A stretch of DNA of 42,795 nt from positions 1 through 42,795 of the forward strand of contig JAJXZF010000048.1 in NCBI GenBank assembly GCA_021780225.1. The letters run 5' to 3'. Positions 16,024-22,470 of this stretch are shown piece after piece. Within the stretch, counting starts at the first letter, position 1, and every line of letters begins with the position of its first letter. The notes beneath the pieces are model-generated. The model saw only the letters and a list, made by a program, of their open reading frames with translations. It was not told where the DNA came from and searched no databases. The translations under genes were made by a program, and so were the position numbers. The stretch comes from Deltaproteobacteria bacterium. Lineage in GTDB: Bacteria > Desulfobacterota > Binatia > Binatales > Binataceae.

Positions 16024-16062
16024 TCATCGGAACTCGAAAGATCGCAACTTATCGATCGCGCC

Positions 16063-16266
16063 AGTGTGATGTCCCCTAAATAAGTTTGCACACTGCGTCT
16101 ATCTTGCGCTCCGCGTAGATGCCCGGATCAAGTCCGGGCATGACAACCTCTGTTCGTCATTGCCGGGTTCAGACCCGGCAATCCATCCCTTGTCGCCCGA
16201 CAGTGGGCGACCTGCGCGCCGAGCTGATAAGGCGTCAGGTGGAAGTTATTTGCGGGACGCCACACT
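16063..16266. repeat. MITE-like structured interspersed repeat, copy 1
   Basis: A 204-base element with imperfect terminal inverted repeats. The left end reads agtgtgatgtcccctaaata and the right end is its near-complement, tatttgcgggacgccacact. Inside are three short hairpins: a 9-bp stem atgcccgga/tccgggcat (16118-16142 region), a 9-bp stem ttgccgggt/acccggcaa (about 16159-16180), and a 7-bp stem gtcgccc/gggcgac (about 16192-16211). A second copy lies at 22277-22462. Relative to it, this copy has an extra 18-base segment (about 16085-16102). No target-site duplication is certain. It separates the flippase-type gene from hpnJ and has no coding capacity of its own. Confidence 0.85.
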
Positions 16267-16409
16267 AAACGGCCCGTTTCAACACCACGCTCATTTCGCC
16301 CGCCGATTGCAAGCATGGTTAAATGTCCGGGGCCTGATTGCCTTGCCGCGATTGCCTTTGTATATTTTTCGCTAACCTTTCGGACAGGCTTGGCCGGAGA
16401 ATCGCGCGC

Positions 16410-22247: not shown

Positions 22248-22276
22248 CAGACACCGCCCTTCGCTTCCGAAACGCT

Positions 22277-22462
22277 AGTATGGCGTCCCCTAAATAAGCT
22301 TGCGCTCCGCGTGGATGCCCGGATCAAGTCCGGGCATGACACACTCTGTTCGTCATTGCCGGGCCCAGACCCGGCAATCCATCCCAGGCCGCCCCGCGCT
22401 GGGCGGCCTGCGCGCCGAGCTGATCAGGCGTCAGGCGGAAGTTATTTGCGGGACACCACACT
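22277..22462. repeat. MITE-like structured interspersed repeat, copy 2
   Basis: A 186-base copy of the element at 16063-16266, in the same orientation. The terminal inverted repeats are agtatggcgtcccctaaata (left) and tatttgcgggacaccacact (right), flanked by gct and agc, so the inverted symmetry extends three bases further out. It has the same three internal hairpins. The third is an 8-bp stem ggccgccc/gggcggcc, where copy 1 has gtcgccc/gggcgac: a T:A pair here is C:G, so pairing is kept. It lacks the 18-base insert of copy 1. It fills most of the gap between the SMP-30 gene (stop 8 bases away) and the CoA-transferase start (29 bases away), and may act as a terminator or processing site between them. 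Confidence 0.85.
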
Positions 22463-22470
22463 AGCGCCAA

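Follow-up and report, generated by a model that had tools for sequence, protein, structure and literature searches.

The window, that is, the whole stretch of 42,795 nucleotides of contig JAJXZF010000048.1 that was analysed, carries two copies of a short element, both intergenic (Table 1). Copy 1 is positioned between an LPG_synthase_TM-domain gene and the B12-binding radical SAM gene that follows, while copy 2 has a CoA-transferase family III gene on one side and an SMP-30/gluconolactonase gene on the other. In both copies the ends form inverted repeats of about 22 bp and enclose three internal hairpins, much as the first-pass annotation of this DNA had described (with ends of about 20 bases), and the termini read CTA-GTGTGGYGTCCC..AAATAA. 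Copy 1 is flanked on the left by CA (16062-16063), a decayed TA, and on the right by TA (16266-16267). Copy 2 has TA at 22276-22277 and at 22462-22463, with CTAG on both sides.

Table 1. Positions of the two copies in the window and of the parts of copy 1
Feature	Position	Strand	Length or basis
MITE copy 1, long form	16064..16265	+	202 bp without flanking TA
MITE copy 2, short form, 18-bp deletion	22278..22461	+	184 bp without flanking TA
Left terminal inverted repeat, IS630-type, copy 1	16064..16084	+	termini pattern search and complete IS630 ends
Hairpin 1, predicted CGTC-type REP, head rightward (GATGCCCGGATCAAGTCCGGGCATGAC)	16118..16144	+	genome pattern counts
Hairpin 2, predicted CGTC-type REP, head leftward (CGTCATTGCCGGG..CCCGGCAATCCA)	16155..16185	+	genome pattern counts
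Hairpin 3 (gtcgccc...gggcgac), flagged pair inside	16191..16212	+	substitution counts, helices 8 and 9
Right terminal inverted repeat, copy 1	16245..16265	+	corresponds to the IS630 end overlapping the transposase gene 3' end

The 18 bases by which copy 1 exceeds copy 2 had been taken for an insert. They are instead the common state, being spanned by 74 of the 81 aligned copies of the family described below, and copy 2 is one of the 7/81 without them. Two near-direct repeats of 12 bp, TTGC[A/G]CTCCGCG, spaced 18 bp apart, bracket the deletion. A single mobile subfamily of 187-bp copies was not supported, as the last ancestor that they share on the tree is that of all 81 copies, and repeated deletion between the near-direct repeats is an equally likely origin. 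Both copies are predicted to fold very stably. As RNA, copy 1 reaches -107.5 kcal/mol (z -8.6) and copy 2 a z of -5.5; as DNA, copy 1 has a z of -7.4. In each of the three cases none of 200 shuffles equalled the fold. The long terminal stem of these folds is a by-product of the terminal inverted repeats.

Copy number, ends and target sites

The genome under study is a 3.8-Mb draft, 96.86% complete and in 118 contigs, in which 106 copies of the element were read, full or partial. With copy 1 as query, at least 40 long matches of 88-100% identity were obtained (the best 40 of 180 first-look candidates were scored). The termini pattern at up to 3 mismatches occurs 227 times, against 0 for the reversed-pattern control, and among the termini places listed (100/227) all fell inside loci that were read. 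In total 88 elements were extracted, 72 of them 204-206 bp long. Classed by length, with the flanking TA partly counted, 76 of the 88 measure 204-213 bp (two partial elements among them) and 7 measure 186-187 bp, while there is one of 227 bp and there are four of 279-280 bp. In the last form (L143, L149, L158 and L165) the stretch of hairpin 2 (model positions 84-121) is matched twice.

Hairpin 1 led to further copies. Among the matches listed, 22 hairpin-1 sites of the same genome lay outside the first set; 20 were fetched, of which 18 are MITE copies, full or partial, and two are free-standing REPs. These 20 sites were kept out of the conservation analysis because they had been selected by hairpin 1. 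The flank counts use 86 elements (the 88 minus the partial L136 and L138), and the alignment 81 (the 86 minus five elements of 227-280 bp). The first-pass annotation had held that a genome with only two copies would speak against its reading; the 88 extracted elements, the 18 confirmed at further sites and the termini counts describe a much larger family. The search for the termini beyond this genome, also proposed there, was productive: the pattern is present in 24/96 genomes including the own one, with 0 for the reversed control. By kinship, it occurs in 22/41 genomes within the same family (the own genome counted) and in 2/55 outside it.

A TA flanks the element on the left in 70/86 and on the right in 71/86 cases, and the longer CTAG in 50/86 and 57/86. 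When copy 2 is removed together with one TA, the remaining sequence aligns without gaps over 175 columns to the orthologous place in genome G004 and over 174 columns to that in G003, the empty site in G004 reading CTC; the alignments to the more diverged G001, G006 and G005 contain gaps. A search with the element flanks gave 10 junction matches, and the sole clean orthologous empty site among them is that of locus L013, where G004 has CTAG (116 columns, 0 gaps). The paralogous empty sites of L017 require gaps of 3-5 bases. Copy 1 is missing from the orthologous place in both G003 and G004; its alignment to G003 has 9 gaps in 270 columns and demonstrates the absence without fixing the duplication precisely. 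A TA duplication of 2 bp is seen at the empty sites; the element has moved, and the earlier description of it as MITE-like is borne out. Since ends of the IS630 group are combined with a TA duplication at orthologous empty sites, the element is classed as an IS630-type MITE.

IS630 relatives and the source of the transposase

In the IS630 family, insertion takes place at TA, and the TA is duplicated (PMC2170065). A complete IS630 with ends matching those of the MITE was found in a family relative (G021; locus L093, positions 757-1922, 1166 bp with the TA included). Its transposase has 364 residues and a DDE_3 domain, scores 235.5 bits with NF033545 against an IS630 cut-off of 100, and is 100% identical to a protein on JAKBMB010000030.1 (Deltaproteobacteria bacterium isolate FK3.bin127). 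As that record is labelled Deltaproteobacteria, the host family is not evidently alphaproteobacterial. The same genome holds a 357-bp element (L039, 1503-1859) with the same termini and a very long inner palindrome, for which -196 kcal/mol is predicted as RNA. In G025 (L081), the C-terminus VINGTSH of an IS630 transposase is encoded into the terminal inverted repeat, the last codons lying inside the terminus.

Of 80 transposase homologue loci kept, 20 were examined for ends, L093 itself among them. CTAGTGT starts the right end in 18/20 of these, and a left end could be placed at a distance of about 1.15 kb in 17/20; the other three are L182, which is at a contig edge, and L195 and L199, which have poor left matches. 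On contigs of G107 and G046, the final 37-51 residues of the IS630 transposase query were matched again and again by short stretches, several of which lie close to the end of a contig; these are possibly other short derivatives of IS630 3' ends.

The transposase with matching termini that the first-pass annotation asked for exists in relatives and was not found in the own draft, where the DDE_3 profile gave four matches and none of these loci shows MITE ends around its transposase. The IS could be absent from the assembly, given the completeness and the number of contigs stated above. The only own match to a fragment of the cognate transposase is about 30% identical, and its IS has different ends (GTGCTTCGACCC). 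Among the own IS630 elements, L031-L033 were rejected as the driver since their ends differ from those of the MITE, and L034 showed no MITE-type end. The L032 element (1169-2600, own contig C78) is a different IS630 with the ends CTA-GTGCTTCGACCCA and adjoins a MITE copy within the CTAG left by the MITE end. Such nested insertion is easy because insertion into CTAG leaves CTAG at both ends.

Short elements of this kind have been described in other bacteria. The RUP of Streptococcus pneumoniae is an IS630-Spn1-related MITE of 107 bp with more than 100 short, non-coding copies, IS630-like terminal inverted repeats and TA targets, for which a transposase acting in trans is presumed; the passages on RUP in PMC2229807 report no other signatures of structure or function. 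Like RUP as described there, the family studied here has more than 100 short non-coding copies, IS630-type ends and TA target sites. Unlike RUP, the element is about 205 bp long and holds a third hairpin besides its REP dimer, its sites are mostly CTAG, and no cognate IS was found in the same draft. For ISY100, about 24 bp of each end are likely to be enough in cis, according to the sections on its ends in PMC2170065. The TA target and its duplication, the short terminal inverted repeats and the DDE transposase are shared with ISY100 and the IS630 family in that account, whereas ISY100 is autonomous and the MITE is not. The Correia/NEMIS elements of Neisseria are likewise TA-flanked MITEs with terminal inverted repeats of about 24 bp, and a REP dimer as cargo, as present here, is absent from their descriptions in the corresponding passages of PMC2229807 and PMC2817692.

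A mechanism like that of RUP is proposed. An IS630-family DDE transposase, supplied in trans by another element, would have bound the ends of about 22 bp, excised the element and inserted it at a TA. The suggestion that the element was mobilised in RNA form received no support, and the ends indicate a DDE DNA transposase instead. Between the termini, the head-to-head pair of CGTC-type REPs, the third hairpin and the quasi-palindromic arms would allow the whole element to fold on itself. Taken together, the ends, the target sites and the hairpins make it very probable that the element is a non-autonomous IS630-type MITE with a CGTC-type REP pair of the host as its cargo.

The REP pair inside the element

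The CGTC REPs are reported as a repeat type without a dedicated transposase, with a few transposase-gene associations regarded as fortuitous (Di Nocera et al., 2013; PMC3733652). Hairpins 1 and 2 resemble these repeats in most features. Hairpin 1 has the stem of 8-9 bp starting with AT, the loop of 4-5 nt (here the 5-nt CTTGA, read on its own strand) and the CCA tail. Hairpin 2 also has a stem starting with AT and the CCA tail, but a loop of 6 nt. The unpaired head of the type is CGTC, with TGTC and CCTC as alternatives. CGTC is found in hairpin 2 and in hairpin 1 of the sister-species elements of G003 and G004. In the own hairpin 1 the CGTC head is mostly altered, to GGTC in 60/81 copies and TGTC in 17/81. 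The two hairpins form a head-to-head heterodimer, an arrangement also given for CGTC REPs in the parts of PMC3733652 that describe them, with about 10 nt separating the opposed heads. Judged by these sequence features, hairpins 1 and 2 largely match the published description, and the type is mainly alphaproteobacterial in that source, which agrees with the earlier remark that related palindromes are known from alphaproteobacterial genomes.

At up to 2 mismatches, hairpin 1 occurs at 132 places in the own genome, 21 in G001, 18 in G003, 22 in G004, 3 in G006 and once in G028, and in none of the remaining 51 of the 57 genomes; hairpin 2 occurs at 128 places in the own genome. Many of the hairpin-1 REPs fetched from the sister species are free-standing, often paired. 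The MITE copy L259 has a spacer between its REPs that resembles those of free-standing dimers both in the own genome (L261) and in the sister species (L283), and because of this resemblance the REP pair of the MITE was probably captured from a free-standing REP dimer of the host.

Other cargoes occur between ends of the same kind. In G003 a related MITE of about 155 bp, of which four copies were read, has the same kind of ends and a nearly identical REP pair, and its arms are different. Across the related genomes, 25 short two-ended elements were collected with ends at up to 5 mismatches; four carry CGTC-type REPs (all in G003), 10 a repeat of the GTCATTCTGAG type, and 11 neither. At four own loci (L005, L012, L017 and L139) the MITE adjoins another repeat with GTCATTCTGA or its complement, the type that fills the MITE shells in other genera.

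Published CGTC REPs differ from this arrangement. The dimer studied here lies within an IS630-type MITE, unlike those in the pertinent sections of PMC3733652, where the CGTC-1 dimers of H. neapolitanus are placed inside 41-bp palindromes and no transposon is named. A search of titles and abstract openings, with most subscription journals outside its coverage, found no REP dimer inside an IS630 MITE, and the available passages of PMC10969869 and PMC12306157 hold nothing on the subject. With the same coverage of journals, no paper on transposon repeats of Binatota was found. As an IS630-type MITE, RUP-like in its presumed mechanism, the element is of a known kind, and its distinguishing trait is the REP dimer as its cargo. 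The abstract of PMC3733652 leaves the spread of CGTC REPs open for want of a transposase. Since these repeats are reported there without a dedicated one, the MITE offers a concrete vehicle for them, and travel inside an IS630-type MITE becomes a testable route of spread for a repeat type found in many bacteria.

Conservation and covariation of the hairpins

More than 100 copies have diverged from a single consensus along a star-like tree, and the family is thus a natural experiment on which parts of the REP hairpins are kept after landing. On the tree of the 81 aligned copies the terminal branches sum to 4.58 and the internal ones to 0.84, and resolution is poor (5/78 nodes above 0.9). Parsimony counts 1.0 changes per site in hairpin 1 (p 1.4e-7) and 1.8 in hairpin 2 (p 1.5e-5), where the other regions have 4.2-7.7; per site, the rest of the element thus changes about two to eight times as often as the REP hairpins. 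Hairpin 2 has 14 substitutions in the 18 columns of its stem and 43 in the six columns of its loop. In hairpin 3 the inner stem is fairly quiet too, with 26 in its 10 columns, and the outer three pairs, to which the first-pass claim refers, are hypervariable, with 112 in six columns. Variants carried by no more than 4 copies are rarer in hairpins 1 and 2 (p 0.003 and 0.010); singletons are not depleted (p 0.68 and 0.23), a poor measure at such divergence.

This near-constancy is interpreted as the outcome of either ongoing selection acting on the REP hairpins or their biased repair. Across the 81 copies, none of the 19 pairs in helices 5 and 7 was changed on both sides, which disfavours unbiased arm-to-arm correction, a process expected to yield compensated pairs in hairpins 1 and 2. 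Once landed, the bulk of the element would drift, with hairpins 1 and 2 hardly changing. It is conceivable, as a tentative addition compatible with the IS630-type MITE, that the element has been domesticated by the host, the REP hairpins working in each copy, for example as protectors of mRNA 3' ends or as binding sites, and being selected copy by copy. The low rate of change on a star-like tree, the drift of the hairpin 2 loop beside a stable stem and the missing both-side changes are in line with such a role. On the other side, singletons are not depleted, selection on more than 100 copies is demanding, and biased conversion near the hairpins could yield the same pattern. A wider scheme, in which IS630-type MITE shells spread the transposase-less CGTC REP dimers, different genera load them with different palindromes, and the landed REP hairpins are selected per copy as the shell decays, may be put forward, and at present it should be regarded as rather doubtful.

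Over a longer time the palindrome itself has been kept. REPs of the related genomes with the core GG[GA]CTTGA[CT]CC (57 sites, including some within the MITEs of G003 and G004) are 97.7% paired against 71.0% when shuffled, over seven pairs, and their 15 distinct sequences are 91.4% paired against 62.1%. The stems ATGCCCGGG, ATTCGCGGG, ATTGCCGGG, ACCCTCGGG and ATGGCCGGA each have their matching partner present. In G001 (contigs C165, C439, C309 and C175), the doubly changed stems GATGGCC..GGCCATGAC and GATGCGC..GCGCATGAC are clear compensatory variants. Such compensatory stems imply that the palindrome is maintained at the level of the REP family.

Among the copies of the MITE no comparable signal was found. 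The first-pass annotation had pointed to a T:A pair of hairpin 3 in copy 1 that is C:G in copy 2 as a compensatory change and as evidence of a kept fold. The sequence difference is real. Counted directly across the 81 aligned copies, the pair is T/A in 34, C/A in 17, T/G in 15, C/G in 12 and otherwise composed in 3 (Fisher p 0.46), and the paired change between copies 1 and 2 is chance. Both sites carry common variants in random combination, and a single paired difference between two copies is weak evidence of structure. Over 75 pairs, 24 cells differ on both sides, where shuffles average 23.2 and slid versions of the structure give 12-29. A separate count of double changes, paired or not, gave 34 against 35.7 expected, and on the tree there are 9 double changes on the same branch, where slid controls have 10-17. 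All three tests (against shuffles, expected double changes and slid tree controls) went against covariation, which was rejected as evidence that the fold is kept. The claim that the folded form is kept fails on covariation among the copies and is rescued in part by the near-constant stems of hairpins 1 and 2 and the compensatory REP stems of related genomes.

The same counts bear on the reading as a structured RNA element in which compensatory changes maintain the fold, an explanation that is improbable here. It would account for the very stable fold, the nearly invariant stems of hairpins 1 and 2 and the compensatory stems in the REPs of related genomes. Its covariation score of 0.071 exceeds the 0.022-0.041 of slid versions, a margin towards which consensus-derived structures tend, and equals the shuffle mean (0.071). 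Moreover, 81 copies gave no covariation above shuffles, nor above slid controls on the tree, nothing in the window matches Rfam at gathering score, and many copies leave the outer pairs of hairpin 3, on which the claim rested, unpaired (helix 8 is 74% paired), while the terminal stem follows from the inverted repeats. Least likely of all, and only barely credible, is a REP/BIME mobilised by a REP-associated tyrosine transposase (RAYT), for although hairpins 1 and 2 are REP-like and head-to-head, the profile Y1_Tnp (PF01797) has 0 matches in the own genome against a match in 5/14 control genomes, the mobile unit has IS630 ends, comprises the terminal inverted repeats and duplicates TA, and 18/20 of the further own hairpin-1 sites lie inside MITEs, with 2/20 free-standing.
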